A stretch of DNA of 64,000 nt from the NCBI RefSeq assembly GCF_012910905.1, contig NZ_WTVN01000002.1:124001-188000 (forward strand). The letters run 5' to 3'. The notes beneath the pieces are model-generated. The model did no database searches. It was not told the origin of the DNA and was given only the letters and a program-made list of their open reading frames with translations. Shown here one piece after another: positions 51,754 through 61,352 of the stretch. Position 1 is the first letter of the stretch. Every line of letters starts with the position of its first letter. Both the position numbers and the translations under genes were made by a program. This DNA comes from Aromatoleum toluvorans (lineage in GTDB: Bacteria; Pseudomonadota; Gammaproteobacteria; Burkholderiales; Rhodocyclaceae).

Positions 51754-54700
51754 TCATGAGGCCTTCCGCGCCTTCTTCGCGCTTCCCTTGCCGCGCAGCG
51801 CCGCGGCGGGGACACCTTCCTCCTTAACGGCACGGCTCGCGAGAAATTCCCGGAGGATGGTCGCGGTGTGCGAGTCATGCGCCGCGCACACGTCCGCGAC
51901 CGGCCCCTGCGCGACGATGCGCCCGCCGCCGTCACCGCCTTCCGGGCCGAGGTCGAGCAGCCAGTCGGCCTCCGCCATCACGTCGAGGTCGTGCTCGATC
52001 GCGAGCACGGTGTGGCCGGCGTCCGCGAGGCGATGCAGCACGCGGATCAGCTTGTCGACGTCGGCCATGTGCAGGCCCACGGTCGGCTCGTCGAGCACGT
52101 ACAGCGTGTGCTTTTCGGGCGGCAGCGGACGGCCGCCGGTTTTCGCGCTCTCGCCGGCGCGGCCGCGCACTTTCGCAAGCTCGGTGACAAGCTTGATGCG
52201 CTGCGCCTCGCCGCCGGACAGCGTCGGGCTGGGCTGGCCGAGCGTGAGGTAGCCGAGGCCGACGTCCTGCAGCAGCGCGAGCGGATGCGCGATCGAAGGA
52301 TGCGCGGCGAAGAAGTCGACCGCCTCGTCGACCGGCATCGCGAGCACTTCGGCGACCGTCCTGTCGCGCCAGCGCACGGTGAGCGTCTCGGGATTGAAAC
52401 GCGCGCCGCCGCAGGCATCGCAAGGCAGCTTCACGTCGGGCAGGAAGCTCATCTCGACGGTCGTCTGCCCCTGGCCTTCGCACACCGGGCAGCGTCCGGC
52501 GCCGGTGTTGAAGGAGAAGCGCGATGCGTTCCAGCCGCGCGTCTTCGCTTCGAAAGTCTCGGCGAAGAGCTTGCGGATCGCGTCCCAGAAGCCGACGTAG
52601 GTCGCGGGACAGGAACGCGGCGTCTTGCCGATCGGGGTCTGGTCGACTTCGAGCACGCGGCCGACCGCCTGCCAGCCGTCGATGCGTTCGCAGCCGACCG
52701 GCTCGGCCGCGCTGGTCTGCGCTTCGCCGCGGCGGCGGGCGCGCTGCGCGTCGGGGTCGCCGAGCAGCGCGTGCAGGCTCGCGTGGATTACGTCGCGCGC
52801 GAGCGTGGATTTCCCCGAGCCGGACACGCCGGTGACGACCGTGAGCCGCCCGAGCGGCAGGCGTGCGTCGACCGAGCGCAGGTTGTGCAGCGTGGCGTTC
52901 TTCACGACGAGGAAAGGGTGGTCGTCGACGATCGCCAGTGGCGGGCGCATCGGGTGCTGCAGCGGCGCGCGGAAGCAGGCGCCGGTCGCCGATTGCGGCG
53001 CCGCCATCAGGTCGGGCAAGGTGCCTTCGGCGACCACTTCGCCGCCGCGCACGCCGGCGCCGGGGCCGAGATCGATGACATGGTCGGCGCGGCGGATGGT
53101 GTCCTCGTCGTGCTCGACGACCAGCAGCGTGTTGCCGCGGTCGCGCAGCGCTTCGAGGGTGTCGAGCAGCATGCGGTTGTCGCGCGGGTGCAGGCCAATC
53201 GTCGGTTCGTCGAGGATGTAGCACACGCCGCGCAGGTTGGAGCCGAGCTGGGCGGCGAGGCGGATGCGCTGCGCTTCGCCGCCGGAGAGCGTCGGTGCGC
53301 CGCGATCGAGCGCGAGGTAGGCGAGACCGACCTGCTGCAGGAAATCGAGGCGGCCGCGGATCTCGCTGACGAGGTCGCGCGCGATGTCGGTCTCGCGGCC
53401 TTCGAGTTTCAGGCTGTCGAAGAAGCCGGCGACTTTCGCGACTGGCTGCGCCGACAGTTCATGGATGCCGAGATCGCGGAAACGCACCGCGCGCGCGACC
53501 GGATTCAGGCGCGCGCCGTCGCAGCTCGGACAGACTTCTTCGGTGACCTGTTCGGTTTCGGCGAGATCCAGCTCGTTCGCGTCCTCGACGCGGCCTATCG
53601 TGCGCTGGCCGGTGCCGTAGCAGCTCTCGCACCAGCCGTGCTTGGCGTTGTACGAGAACAAACGCGGATCGGGTTCCGGGAAGCTGTCGCCGCAGGACGG
53701 GCAGGCGCGCAGCGTCGAGAAGGTGTGCGGCTGCGCGCCGACCTTGCCGAGCTCCAGCACCTTGATGACGCCCTTGCCGTGTTCGAGCGCTTCGGCGAGC
53801 TGCATACGCAGCACCGCCTCGTGCTCGGGCCCGACGACGACCATGCCGACCGGCAGCTCGATCGTGTGTTCGACGTAGCGGTCCAGCCGCGGCCATTTGG
53901 CGGTCGGGAGGTAGTCGCCGTCGACGCGCAGTTGCGCAAAACCCTTGCCCTTGGCCCACTTCGCGAGCGCCGTGTACAGGCCCTTGCGGTTCGTGACCAG
54001 CGGGGCCAGCAACTCGACCGACGCGCCACGATAGTCGCGCAGGATCTGCGCCGCGATCGCGTCGAAACTCTGCGGCGACACCGGCACGTCGCACTTCGGG
54101 CAGTACTGCGTGCCGAGCTTCACGTACAGCAGGCGCAGGAAGGGCTGGATCTCGGTCAGCGTGCCGACCGTGCTCTTCCTGCCGCCCCGACTGACGCGCT
54201 GCTCGATCGCGACCGTCGGCGGAATGCCGAACAGCGCATCGACGTCGGGGCGGGCCGCCGGCTGCACGAACTGGCGCGCGTAGGCGTTGAGCGATTCGAG
54301 GTAGCGGCGCTGGCCTTCGCCGAAGACGATGTCGAACGCGAGCGTGGATTTGCCCGAGCCGGAGAGGCCGGTGATGACGGTGAAGCGGTCGCGCGGGATC
54401 GTCAGGCTGACGTTCTTCAGGTTGTGCTCGCGCGCGTGGCGGATCTCGATCGCCGGCGCGGCGACGGGGCGGTAGCGCGCGACGGGTTCGGCGACCGCGG
54501 TCGTCGGCTTGCCGAGGGATTCCGCGTAGGCGCGCAGCGCGACGCCGGTGTGCGACGCCGCGCAGGCCATCACGGTCGGTGGCGTGCCGGCGACGACCAG
54601 CTCGCCGCCGTCCTCGCCGCCTTCGGGCCCGAGGTCGATGAGCCAGTCGGCGGCGAGCAGCACGTCGAGGTTGTGCTCGATGACGACCAGCGCGTGGCCG

Positions 54701-57492
54701 GCGTCGAGGAGTTTTTCGAAGGCGCGCAGCAGGGTTGCGACGTCCTCGAAGTGCAGGCCGGTCGTGGGTTCGTCGAAGAGGAAGAGCAGGCGGCCGGTGT
54801 TGGCCTTGGCTTTCGACTTCTTGCCGGAGAGTTTCGCCGCTTCGGCGAGGTGGCCGGCGAGCTTGAGGCGCTGTGCTTCGCCGCCGGACAGCGTCGGCAC
54901 CGGCTGGCCGAGCTTCAGGTATTCGAGGCCGACGTCGGCGAGCGGGGCGAGCGCGGCCTGCACCGCAGGCTGGTCGGCGAAGAAGGCGAGGGCTTCCGAC
55001 ACGGTCATGTCGAGCACGTCCGACACCGACCTGTCGCGCCACGTCAGTTCCAGCACTTCGGGCCGGTAGCGCTTGCCGTCGCAGTCCGGGCAGCGCAGAT
55101 ACACGTCGGACAGGAACTGCATCTCGACGTGTTCGAAGCCGGAGCCGGTGCAGGTCGGGCAGCGGCCGGTGCCGGAGTTGAAGCTGAAGGTGCCGGGGGT
55201 GTAGCCGCGGGTCTTGGCTTCGGGCAGGGCCGCGAACAGGCTGCGGATCGCGTCCCAGGCACCGACGTAGCTGACCGGGTTGGAGCGTGCGCTCTTGCCG
55301 ATCGCGGACTGGTCGACCATCACGACGCCGGAAATCTGCTCCAGCCCTTCGAGGCGCGCGAAGGCGCCGGGGGCTTCGGTGCCGTGGCCGAAGTGTTTGG
55401 CGAGCGCGGGGTAGAGCACGTCCTGGATCAGCGTCGATTTGCCCGAGCCGGAGACGCCGGACACGCACACCAGCTTGCCGAGCGGAATCTCGATGTCGAG
55501 CTCGCGCAGGTTGTGTTCGCGCGCACCGACGAGGCGCAGCACGGGGTCATCCTTGTCGACCGGGCGCGGCTTGCGGCCGGCGTCGACGCGTTTTTTGCCG
55601 GCGAGGTAGGCGCCGGTGAGCGAGGCCGGGTCGGCAGCGAGATCGGCGGGTGGGGCGTAGGCGACGATCTCGCCGCCGCGTTCGCCGGGGCCGGGGCCGA
55701 TGTCGAGCAGGCGGTCGGCGGCGGACATCAGCTGCGGGTCATGTTCGACGACGACGAGGGTGTTGCCGGCGTCGCGCAGCCGCGTCATCACCGCGAGGAT
55801 GCGGTCGATATCGCGCGGGTGCAGGCCGATCGAGGGTTCGTCGAGGACGAACAGGGTGTTCACGAGCGAGGTGCCGAGCGCGGTCGTGAGGTTGATGCGC
55901 TGGACTTCGCCGCCGGACAGCGTGCGCGACTGGCGGTCGAGCGTGAGGTAGGCGAGGCCGACGTTGGCGAGGTAGTCGAGGCGGCTCTTGATCTCGCCGA
56001 GCAGGAGTTCGGTGGCTTCGTCGAGGCCGGACGGGAGTTCGATGCGGGCGATGAAGTCGCGCACGCGGCTGACCGGTTGGGCCATCAGTTCGTGGATGGC
56101 CAATCCAGGTTTTTCGGCGGCGTGATCGGGGCTGCGATGCGCCGCCGCCGCGGGGGCTTCCGGTGCTCGTTGGACGCGTGGCGGACGCCTCGCCCCGAAA
56201 GCCCCCGCGTCGGCGGCTCGGGTCTCGGGATTCTCGTCGGCTTGCGCCGTCTCGTTGTTTGTTTTTTCGCCCAGGCGCCAGAGCAAGGCTTCGGGCTTGA
56301 GTCTCGCGCCCTTGCACGCCGGACATTCCGTGTAGCTGCGGTAGCGCGACAGCAGCACGCGGATGTGCATCTTGTAGGCCTTGCTCTCCAGCCAGTCGAA
56401 GAAGTGGCGCACGCCGTACCACTTGCGCGGCCACGAAGCTTCCCAGCTCTTCCACTCGGGATCGCCTTCGAGCAGCCACGCGCGGTGCTGCGGCGGCAGG
56501 TCGCGCACCGGCACGTCCATCGCGACACCGTACTTCTTCGCCATCTTCGCGAGGTCGTCCTGGCATTCGCGGTAGCTCGCGGTCTGCCAGGGTTTCACGG
56601 CACCTTCGGCGAGCGTCTTGGATTCGTCGGGAATCACCAGCGAAAAATCGACGCCGATCACGCGGCCGAAGCCGCGGCAGGTGTCGCAGGCGCCGATCGG
56701 CGAGTTGAACGAGAAGAGGCCCGGCGTGGGGTCGGAGTAATGGATGTCGCAGTCAGCGCAGTGCAGGTCGCGCGAGAAGCGCCAGACGGTCTCATCGCCT
56801 TCCCCCTGCGCGCGCACCGCGAGGCGGCCGTGGCCGTGGGTCATCGCCGTCTCGATCGCTTCGCTGACGCGGCTGCGTTCGGCGTTCGAAAAGCGGAAGC
56901 GGTCCTGCACGACGTGCAGCAGGTCGCCGCTCTCGGTCGATTCGCGCGCATGGATGCGCGTGTAACCCTGCTGGTTGAGCAGCTGCGTGACTTCGTCTTC
57001 GGTGAAGTTCTTCGGCACCGGCACCGCGAACGTCAGCACGAGGCGCGGATCGTCCGTCGCGCAGCGTTCGGCGAGCGCCGCGTGGATGCTGTCAGGATCG
57101 TCGCGGCGCACTTCCTGGCCGCAGCCGCGGCAATAGAGTTTGGACGCGCGGGCGTACAGCAGCTTGAAGTGGTCGGTCAGCTCGGTCATCGTGCCGACCG
57201 TGGAGCGCGAGGTGCGCACCGGGTTGGTCTGGTCGATCGCGATCGCCGGCGGCACGCCTTCGATGCGGTCGACCTGGGGCTTGTCCATGCGGTCGAGGAA
57301 CTGCCGCGCGTAGGGCGAGAAGGTCTCGACGTAGCGGCGCTGGCCTTCGGCGTACAGCGTGTCGAAGACCAGCGAGGATTTGCCGGAGCCGGAGACGCCG
57401 GTGACGACCGTCAGCTCGTTCAGCGCGATGTCGAGCGAGAGGTTCTTGAGGTTGTTCTGGCGCGCGCCGAAGATGCGGATGCGGTCGGACAT
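51754..57492 (-). CDS. uvrA: Tandem UvrA fusion (two complete UvrA halves in one protein)
   Basis: DNA damage recognition ATPase of nucleotide excision repair, here 1912 residues, twice the usual 940-960. Each half is a full UvrA: half 1 about 1-1000, half 2 about 1010-1912. Four Walker A motifs (G(V/L)SGSGKS(S/T), near 33, 681, 1044 and 1560), four LSGGE signatures and four Walker B DEP motifs are all present. Both halves keep zinc module 1 (CADC..ACDTC and CPSC..WCESC) and module 2 (CPTC..CPDC and CPVC..CDAC). A UvrA dimer equivalent is thus encoded as one chain. Half 1 carries an insertion of about 50 residues near 404-464. A normal uvrA may exist elsewhere in the genome. Confidence 0.93.
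56141..56217 (-). repeat. Palindromic element inserted in frame in uvrA
   Basis: GCCGCCGCCGCGGGGGCTTCCGG-type arm at 56141-56163 is complementary to 56195-56217 with only two mismatches over 23 bases, around a 31-base loop. It lies inside a stretch (56100-56280) encoding about 50 low-complexity residues absent from ordinary UvrA, between [19 protein letters not shown] and [10 protein letters not shown]. It keeps the reading frame. It looks like a mobile or dispersed palindromic sequence tolerated in a surface loop. No second copy was found in this window. Confidence 0.65.
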
Positions 57493-58655: not shown

Positions 58656-59819
58656 CTATTTTACCGCGGGCGCCGAAAATTGCACCAGGGTCGACGCAAG
58701 ATCCTGAAAACGCGCGAGTTCATCCGACCAGCGGCACACGTGCGGGGCGAGCCGGGCCAGCGCGGCTTCGAAGGCGGGCCAGGCCGCCGCGGCATCGCCC
58801 GCGCCGTTCCACGCCAGCCAGAACGCGCGCAGCGCCGCGGCCGCCTCGCCGTCCAGTCCGGCGACGAAACGCGCGACGAAGGCCTCGAGCTTGTCGTGAT
58901 GCACGGCCTCGTCCTGCTCGTAGATGTGCCACACGAAAGGCCGTGCGGCCCACTGCGCGCGCACGAAGGAGTCCTCGCCGCGCACGAAGTTGAGGTCGCA
59001 GGCCCACAGCAGGCGGTCGTAGTCGGCGCTGGCGAGGAAAGGCAGGATCACGGTCGTGAGCCGGCCGGCGGCGAGCATGTCGCCGGGGCGCCCGTCGCCG
59101 CGGCCGAAGAAGCGCAGCACGTCGCCCAGCACGCGGCCTTCGGGCACCAGCAGCACGGTCGGCTGCGGCGCCTCGGCCCAGCGCTGCAGCAGCGCGGGCA
59201 GGCCCGGCTGCTCGTACGCGAACAGCGACACGAGCCGCGCGCCCTCGGGCACTGCCGGGAGACCCAGCCCGGCGAGCCACTCGCGTTGCGCCGCGGCATC
59301 CGCCTGGAAGCGCTCGCGCGCGGCGATCAGCCCCCGCTCGCGCAGCAGCCCGCCGGTACGCGCGGTGAAGCCGGGAAAGCAGAAGCGCTTCGCCAGCGGC
59401 AGGCGCGGATGCGGCGACGCCAGCCCGTGGCAGCCCTCGACCCAGTCCTCGGCCGACAGGTACTCGAGGTTGATCCACTGCGGCCGCGGCGCGCACGCCG
59501 CCATCGCCTCGACGTAGCACTCGGGCGGCTCGCACGCGAAGGCCTCGACGACCGCCCGCGCCGGCCGCACGCGGGGAAAGGGCTCGCACCAGCGCCGCAC
59601 GTCGACGCCCTCCGCGCGCAGCCCGTCCCGGGCGTCCCGCGCGGCCGGACACAGGCGCGCGAAGGTCGCCCAGTCGTCCACCCACAGCCTGACCGCGCAG
59701 CCGTGGTCGTGCGCCAGCGCCTTGGCCAGCCGCCAGCAGACGCCGATATCCCCGAAGTTATCCACAACCCGGCAGAAGATGTCCCAGTCGAAGGCAGGTG
59801 CGGCGTCGGAAAGGCTCAT
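58656..59819 (-). CDS. earP: EF-P arginine rhamnosyltransferase EarP
   Basis: GT-B glycosyltransferase of 387 residues (DUF2331) that attaches dTDP-rhamnose-derived rhamnose to EF-P Arg32. The N-terminal signature [21 protein letters not shown] (residues about 12-32) and the C-terminal nucleotide-sugar block [26 protein letters not shown], including the catalytic DN and the RGEDSF motif, are intact. ATG at 59819 is used; a frame to 59909 runs into the DnaA-box region. With efp it makes a complete modification pair; dTDP-rhamnose synthesis genes are not in the window. Confidence 0.96.
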
Positions 59820-59856
59820 GGCAGTGGACAAGTGCGGGGGAAACGCGGGAATGCTT

Positions 59857-60055
59857 TGTGGGAAAAGGCCTGTATTGCGACGAAGCGAAAAACCGGACAC
59901 ATTCGGCACACAGGTGAACGGGGTACTTGTCTACGGACTTTTACCATGCCGGATGACCTGCGGGCACTGGCGAAGGCAGACTTATCCACAGAAAAGGCGA
60001 CACTATATATATCTTTATCTTTTAATTTAAAACCAAATACAAAAAGCAAAACCTT
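59857..60055 (+). repeat. DnaA-box module, copy A
   Basis: Ordered motifs: TGTGGGAAA (59857), CACATTCGGC (59898), ACTTGTCTACGG, CTTATCCACAGAAAA (59981), then an AT-rich tract from 60001 with TCTTTATCTTTTA at 60012-60024 and about 9 G/C in its first 50 bases. Every one of these recurs in copy B exactly 453 bases downstream. Confidence 0.75.
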
Positions 60056-60309
60056 CGGCGCCGCAGGCGGCTACAAGGGCAAGGAATCGCACGATTTCGG
60101 GTCGGGCGGCAAAGCGCAGCGCCTCCCGCCGAAGGGCGTTGGAGGACGACTCGCATCCGGTCGTGCAGTTGCCGAACGAGGCCTTCGACTGATCCGCCCG
60201 ACGAAATCGCGACATCCTGGAACGCCGAAGCCGCAGGTTGGCATGCAACGCCGGCGGACCCGCGAGGGGACTCCGGTGGATAAATCCGTGGAGGAGCAGA
60301 GGGAGACTT

Positions 60310-60507
60310 TGTGGGAAAGGACCGGAAAATCCCCGACCGCCAAATCGGGTCACATTCGGCGCACAGGTGAACCGGGCACTTGTCTACGGGGTTCTACCGC
60401 GCCGAAACCCGCGTGAACAGAGGGGCTCGCAGGCTTATCCACAGAAAACGGCCGCCTATCTTCTTCTTTATCTTTTAAATTAAAAGAAAAACAGAAGAAC
60501 AAAGCGT
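60310..60507 (+). repeat. DnaA-box module, copy B
   Basis: Same motif order as copy A at a constant offset of 453 bases: TGTGGGAAA (60310), CACATTCGGC (60351), ACTTGTCTACGG, CTTATCCACAGAAAA (60434), TCTTTATCTTTTA (60465-60477). Sequence between motifs has diverged while spacing has not changed by a single base, which suggests that spacing matters. Confidence 0.75.
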
Positions 60508-60635: not shown

Positions 60636-61352
60636 TCAGTCTTCTTCGGAATAGGCGGCGAGGCGGGCGAGATCGGCGTCGTCGAGCCAGCACCATTCGC
60701 CCGCAGCGAGCTCTGCGGGCAGGGCCAGCCCGCCGACGACACTGCGATGCAGGGCCTCGACGCGGTTGCCGGCCGCGGCCAGCATGCGCTTCACCTGGTG
60801 GTACTTGCCTTCGGTGATCGTGAGCCGTAGACTCCGCTCCCCCGTTTTCGCGCAGGCCGCCGCCGCGATCGGCGCGGGCTCGTCGATGAGTTCGACGCCG
60901 GCGAGCAGTGCCGCGATCAGCGCATCGTCGACCGGGTGCTTCGTCGTGACTTCGTACACCTTGGGCGTGCGCTTCTTGCCCGAGCTCCAGCGGTGGATGA
61001 ACTGGCCGTCGTCCGACAGCAGCAGCAGGCCGGTGGTGTCCTGGTCGAGGCGGCCGACGCACTGCGCGTCGCGGTTCGCCAGCATGTCGGGCAGCAGCGC
61101 GAACACCGAGGGGTGGAACTGGGGCTGGCGCGAGCACTCGTACCCGGCGGGTTTGTGCAGCATCAGGTAGGCTTTTTCGCGATAGGTCCAGGCTTCGCCG
61201 TCGACGCTGAATTCGAGGTCCGCAGGCACGAAGTCTTCGGCGGGATTGTCGAGGATCCGGCCTGCGACAGCGACCAGGCCGGCACGGATCAGGGCGCGGC
61301 ATTCCTTGCGGCTGCCGAACCCCTGGGAATGGAGTATTCGTTCGATCTGCAT
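60636..61352 (-). CDS. rsuA: 16S rRNA pseudouridine(516) synthase RsuA
   Basis: Converts U516 of 16S rRNA to pseudouridine. The 238-residue protein has an N-terminal S4-like domain (MQIERILHSQGFGSRKECRALIR), and the catalytic aspartate D103 in GRLDQDTTGLLLLSDDG, matching E. coli RsuA D102. The KxxKVYEV block and ITEGKYHQVKRM are also typical. ATG at 61352 is the family start; a much longer open frame to 62015 is antisense noise. Confidence 0.94.
   Translation of the reverse strand: MQIERILHSQGFGSRKECRALIRAGLVAVAGRILDNPAEDFVPADLEFSVDGEAWTYREKAYLMLHKPAGYECSRQPQFHPSVFALLPDMLANRDAQCVGRLDQDTTGLLLLSDDGQFIHRWSSGKKRTPKVYEVTTKHPVDDALIAALLAGVELIDEPAPIAAAACAKTGERSLRLTITEGKYHQVKRMLAAAGNRVEALHRSVVGGLALPAELAAGEWCWLDDADLARLAAYSEED

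Follow-up and report, generated by a model that had tools for sequence, protein, structure and literature searches.

Does the gap between earP and an rsuA-like gene, in the 64,000-nucleotide stretch of Aromatoleum toluvorans DNA analysed here (the window), hold the origin of chromosome replication, and is that origin duplicated? The original prediction had pointed to two modules, each a DnaA box with an AT-rich tract, and had read them as a candidate duplicated origin or possibly a DnaA-titration site. The window is part of a 292-kb contig (C40) of a 4.8-Mb draft genome. On this contig dnaA lies beside rpmH, the textbook setting of an origin, 62 kb from the site and with one perfect box in the gap.

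We used comparisons among genomes of the genus, strand-bias regression, and surveys of DnaA boxes and AT-rich tracts to evaluate the site. The gap together with the first codons of earP is very probably the chromosomal origin, oriC, with a tandem-duplicated module. Confidence is high for oriC as the place and moderate for two working modules; from the sequence, both modules may fire.

The repeated module and its boxes

Each of the five motifs named in the original prediction (TGTGGGAAA, CACATTCGGC, ACTTGTCTACGG, TTATCCACA, and TCTTTATCTTTTA) was found twice in the window, with the second copy always at +453 as had been claimed, and a further motif, CACAGGTGAAC, is repeated at the same offset (Table 1). 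When positions 59820-60060 were compared with the sequence shifted by 453, 151 of 241 positions (63%) were identical. At the other offsets scanned for this 241-bp stretch (-400 to -21 and 20 to 899), the mean was 60.5 identical positions (about 25%; sd 7.5) and the maximum was 93. The perfect box followed by an AT-rich tract was likewise borne out in both copies. A weaker reversed box, predicted to lie between the copies, is real (GGTGGATAA on the plus strand) but is not a separate element; in the alignment it opens copy 2, and its counterpart in copy 1 is GTGGACAAG at 59824. The emphasis placed on exactly 453 bp proved immaterial. Among the nine genomes with two complete modules, the window's genome included, the offset varies from 410 to 629 bp, which rules out the exact spacing as a functional ruler. 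The first reading also overlooked a third perfect TTATCCACA, which lies within earP codons, such that the 5' end of earP holds the first DnaA box of the proposed origin.

The perfect box TTATCCACA has 11 copies in the 4.8-Mb genome, and three of them fall within 686 bp at the earP site. As a control, the same letters written backwards have 10 copies genome-wide, so the word has no overall enrichment; the unusual feature is its clustering at the site rather than its count. Weighted DnaA-box density, proposed as a check on the prediction, is highest on C40 at this site (15.5, with the next place at 8.5). The site thus combines a box cluster above the genome background with two tracts adjoining boxes that are AT-rich by composition.

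Scanning the region for promoters and terminators turned up no terminator and a single promoter-like match, which falls in the AT tract of module 1. No Rfam family matched at gathering scores. The nearest named relatives of the window's earP are from Azoarcus and Aromatoleum. The rsuA-like gene scored 159.7 with the RsuA equivalog model, under that model's cut-off of 275. A repeat of about 30 bp that is dispersed through genomes of the genus, with many matches, sits in the spacer between the modules at about 60101-60133.

Table 1. Features of the proposed origin region and its flanks, with positions in the window. Paired positions are those of copy 1 and copy 2.
Feature	Position	Strand	Remarks
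earP (EF-P arginine rhamnosyltransferase)	58656..59819	-	TIGR03837, 499.6 bits (cut-off 347.05)
26-bp coding element GTTGTGGATAACTTCGGGGATATCGG with perfect box TTATCCACA	59743..59768	-	box at 59758-59766 on +
Module 1	59823..60046	+	pairwise identity averages 87% across 8 two-module genomes; weak reversed box 59823-59831, TGTGGGAAA, CACATTCGGC, CACAGGTGAAC, ACTTGTCTACGG, perfect box 59982-59990, AT-rich tract
Module-1 AT-rich, DUE-like tract	60002..60046	+	rank 3 among AT-rich 45-mer places of the 292-kb contig
Spacer between modules, unconserved	60058..60269		28% mean pairwise identity
Module 2	60275..60497	+	pairwise identity averages 83% across 8 two-module genomes; weak reversed box 60275-60283, TGTGGGAAA, CACATTCGGC, CACAGGTGAAC, ACTTGTCTACGG, perfect box 60435-60443, AT-rich tract
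Module-2 AT-rich, DUE-like tract	60461..60497	+	rank 5 among AT-rich 45-mer places of the contig
rsuA-like pseudouridine synthase gene, right flank	60636..61352	-	TIGR00093, 117.6 bits (cut-off 109.3)
TGTGGGAAA	59857/60310		offset 453
CACATTCGGC	59898/60351		offset 453
CACAGGTGAAC, further repeated motif	59909/60362		offset 453
ACTTGTCTACGG	59925/60378		offset 453
TTATCCACA, perfect DnaA box	59982/60435		offset 453
TCTTTATCTTTTA	60012/60465		offset 453

Conservation and history of the modules

Conservation in relatives had been named as a check on the original prediction, and the region was matched at the DNA level in all 16 other genomes of the genus. The distance from the earP-internal box to the module-1 box is 224 bp (225 in G008) at 16 of the 16 genus loci examined. 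Five genomes (G001-G004 and G010) carry a single module, consisting of the earP-internal box, 224 bp, a box, and an AT tract, and G013 likewise shows one. Two complete modules are present in G000, G005, G006, G007, G009, G011, G012, G014, and G015. Both modules are also found in G016, where they are split over two contigs, and the second box of G008 is degenerate (TTTTCCACA).

The identities in Table 1 are for eight core two-module genomes (G005 was omitted from these figures, and G016 from the module alignment, its modules being on two contigs), and both boxes and both AT tracts are kept in all eight. In a tree of these genomes, the module-1 copies and the module-2 copies formed two groups (support 93/93 and 99/98), and the pair of G000 and G011 was recovered within both. 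The duplication therefore predates these species, and its two copies have remained distinct. The second copy in G005 also has the earP-internal element (GATATCCCCGAAATTATCCACAA), which lies beyond module 1 and outside earP, where it is non-coding by position; the duplicated unit therefore reached into earP.

As far as sequence comparison can indicate, conservation of box and tract in both modules argues that both matter. An origin at earP in which one module melts, with the other merely binding DnaA or held as a spare, has nonetheless only a little less than an even chance of being the correct description. Published bipartite origins are described with an unwinding element in one subregion only (PMC4285127), and both the degenerate second box of G008 and the genomes showing one module would suit such an arrangement. 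Against it, the tracts and boxes of both modules have been retained throughout the eight core genomes while the spacer was scrambled.

The box inside earP could be followed beyond the genus. We searched 121 genomes of the family for all codon spellings of V-[VI]-D-N-[FY]-G-D-I-G, with the second residue also open to M, and found 71 places in 70 genomes, the other 51 genomes being uncounted. The perfect box (TGTGGATAA) was present at 18 of the 71 places, in nine genera. It was followed by the flank GGG GAT at 17 of these 18 places, compared with 2 of the remaining 53 (Fisher test, 2.9e-13, relatedness not removed). Only the flank counts as independent evidence here because the box fixes its own codons. 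Among 30 earP loci (the top 30 by score from 115 EarP-bearing genomes, not a random sample), the earP-codon box was found at six of seven loci with an upstream perfect box and at none of the 23 loci lacking one (Fisher test, 1.2e-5, relatedness not removed). Thirteen of the 121 family genomes, from eight genera, have a perfect pair of earP-linked boxes spaced 222-224 bp apart, and five further genomes have a box pair at another locus. By sequence analogy, the earP-linked boxes of other genera may also belong to origins.

Strand bias and competing origin positions

Genes were called with a home-made caller over C40 and over segments of 297-400 kb from G001, G002, G003, and G007, and covered 83-88% of the DNA. 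The sense-strand GC3 skew of each gene was then fitted by change-point regression on strand x side of a moving point, with one mean per genome and with genes having fewer than 60 third-position G+C omitted. This per-genome regression replaced a cumulative GC3 profile in which a single pooled mean served all genomes.

The original prediction had proposed that a skew minimum at the site would support an origin. This was the case in G001, G002, and G003 (230, 298, and 291 genes, respectively), where the best change-point was the gap beside earP. These three genomes, all single-module, are close relatives and non-independent. The dnaA position was worse than the earP gap by 13.3, 8.2, and 15.3 log units, respectively, and the hemE-priA gap by 15.5, 10.6, and 18.2. 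Of 1000 bootstraps, 85%, 84%, and 87% fell within 10 kb of the site, and 0-1.6% within 10 kb of dnaA. In these segments the raw cumulative GC skew reached its minimum at the left boundary of the 10-kb bin containing the site. For G003, this minimum is that of a single contiguous segment (1.70-2.10 Mb), which is mostly positive over its initial 100 kb. When the whole G003 chromosome was sampled in twenty 20-kb stretches, agreement with the site was no more than coarse. All eight stretches between 0 and 1.56 Mb were negative and all 12 between 1.65 and 4.2 Mb were positive. This places the sign switch between 1.54 and 1.65 Mb, and the site, at 1.92 Mb, lies 0.27-0.38 Mb to its right.

The same check failed in C40 and G007, both two-module, where the best change-point fell within the atp operon, at distances from the site of about 63 kb (C40) and 70 kb (G007), and a second mode lay closer to the site, at 21-23 kb. 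For C40 and G007, respectively, the earP site was worse than this best point by 2.8 and 2.1 log units, the mnmG gap by 5.4 and 3.0, the dnaA gap by 4.9 and 5.4, and the hemE-priA gap by 14.0 and 12.0. Only 4% of bootstraps fell within 10 kb of the site in these two genomes (3.9% in C40), and the raw cumulative skew of C40 was lowest near 120 kb, with the site at 184 kb. The skew signal in the window's own clade is ambiguous, and skew alone is no proof of the earP site there. When the four candidates (earP site, dnaA gap, hemE-priA gap, and mnmG gap) were compared directly, the earP site was the best in all five genomes, and the dnaA-rpmH gap, the hemE-priA gap, and the gap upstream of mnmG were rejected as origin positions because each fitted the skew worse. 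With the change-point at the site in the three single-module relatives and the region present in all 16 congeners, the reading of a duplicated origin is supported.

Several genes in the 121-184 kb part of C40 and the homologous part of G007, uvrA above all, have the GC3 skew sign expected of the other arm, which is not so in G001-G003. The UvrA gene of the window (51754-57492) encodes a protein of 1912 aa, roughly double the 943 positions of the UvrA model, which matches it in four stretches.

By synteny, two clades of the genus differ in the orientation of the block running from parB and mnmG to the earP site, which is inverted with respect to its flanks and dnaA. Relative to G001-G003, a breakpoint of the inversion lies between the atp operon and parB, at about 1234-1434 in the window (C40 125.2-125.4 kb). 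As a cause of the shifted skew minimum in the clade of the window, inversion of the site-bearing block was considered and discarded because an inversion that contains the origin leaves leading and lagging status unchanged.

The possibility of a titration site, raised by the original prediction itself, would make the earP site a DnaA-regulating locus of the datA/DARS kind, with the true origin in the dnaA-rpmH gap about 62 kb away. datA and DARS are DnaA-box clusters outside the origin that alter the level of DnaA-ATP, and none of the positional or sequence signatures examined sets such a site apart. The case for this reading comes from the place of dnaA next to rpmH, the perfect box and the parS-like sites 4-5 kb further on, and C40, where dnaA was merely 2.1 log units worse than the site and drew 23.5% of bootstraps to within 10 kb, against 3.9% for the site. 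The gap has only the one box, however, and no AT-rich tract among the top 15 of C40, and in the three relatives it fell 8-15 log units behind the site. A titration site also need not sit at a strand-bias change-point or carry conserved AT tracts beside its boxes. We thus disfavour this explanation and consider it improbable.

More doubtful still is a relocation confined to the window's clade, with the atp/mnmG zone having taken over as the active origin and the earP site left as a relic. The best change-points, at 121 kb on C40 and at the homologous place in G007, are what such a move would predict, but no DnaA box with up to one mismatch was found within 20 kb of that point on C40, the mnmG gap itself was worse than the earP site in both genomes, and the earP site is at its most elaborate in this clade and still conserved there.

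An origin in the hemE-priA gap (C40 274.7-275.0 kb) is hardly credible, its boxes and AT tract notwithstanding, at 10.6-18.2 log units below the best point in all five genomes and with an AT tract that appears weaker by eye in G001-G003. The gap (about 274.6-275.07 kb in full) is a second DnaA-box cluster in its own right, with the near-box TTATGCACA followed by the perfect box TTATCCACA and a reversed near-box, TTGTCCACA, 5 bp apart. It holds the most AT-rich 45-mer of C40, and its three boxes are kept in four of the four relatives examined. Skew argues against an origin here, and the cluster could be a DnaA-regulating site or serve in the control of priA.

A test at the opposite pole of the chromosome was attempted through the dif site, and none of the 17 genomes was matched by the pattern used. 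A published dif survey includes a predicted dif for A. aromaticum EbN1 (PMC3025954), and the search pattern was therefore probably unsuited.

Proposed mechanism and relation to known origins

Boxes nucleate DnaA at an origin, weaker elements help it spread, and the adjoining AT tract melts. At the earP origin, DnaA would bind the three high-affinity boxes (59758, 59982, and 60435) and, presumably, the conserved weaker elements between them. It would then oligomerise and melt the AT-rich tract beside box 59982, box 60435, or both, and helicase loading would follow. DnaA binding, melting, and the use of either or both modules are predicted from the arrangement of these elements. In the history that we propose, the ancestral origin had one module (earP-internal box, 224 bp, box, AT tract), and a tandem duplication of it within one branch of the genus would have produced an origin with two box-plus-unwinding-type modules, each of them conserved.

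The site resembles the continuous oriC of the E. coli type, which also has DnaA boxes beside an AT-rich tract and lies tens of kb from dnaA. It differs from that type in lying outside the gidA(mnmG)/mioC setting that PMC10225481 gives for E. coli and Y. pestis, in having one box in coding sequence, and in its duplicated module. The bipartite origins of Helicobacter pylori and Bacillus subtilis likewise have two DnaA-box clusters in one origin; their clusters are described as parted by dnaA, with a DUE in only one (PMC8235120, PMC4285127). The halves of the earP site, in contrast, are homologous tandem copies with an AT tract in both, and between them lies not a gene but 170-389 bp of unconserved DNA. 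The basal unwinding system is described as a box with up to two mismatches, a spacer of 0-16 bp, and at least three NAN triplets, or DnaA-trios (PMC8287927). Module 2 has six successive NTN triplets from 14 bp after its box and would fit if the strand sense allows, whereas module 1 has only four triplets, 20 bp from its box, and AT-rich DNA yields such runs easily.

Among the literature matches listed on origins in this group and on tandem or duplicated origins, there was no description of the earP site. We give even odds to the broader proposal, that this origin was duplicated in tandem and has retained two full box-plus-unwinding modules, each conserved as a unit of its own, where relatives have one, and that a DnaA box linked to the origin is, across at least nine genera, a dual-use element set in earP codons with a fixed flank. 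Origins are usually viewed as single, fragile arrangements. One- and two-module relatives side by side are a natural experiment on the effect of a second unwinding module on initiation timing and on origin evolution. The earP element could also be a simple sequence marker for the likely origin where dnaA misleads.

Other landmarks of C40 lie on both sides of the proposed origin. Two parS-like sites (251376-251391 and 251672-251687) are near dnaA, 67 kb from the earP site, and parAB-like genes are found 57 kb away on the opposite side. The distance from the site to dnaA is 27-98 kb in the 11 congeners with both on one contig. Between the origin and dnaA, the stretch at about 208-242 kb has a lower GC content (0.55-0.62) and is without orthologs in the relatives' segments examined; it is perhaps acquired DNA and in part the cause of the variable distance between origin and dnaA.
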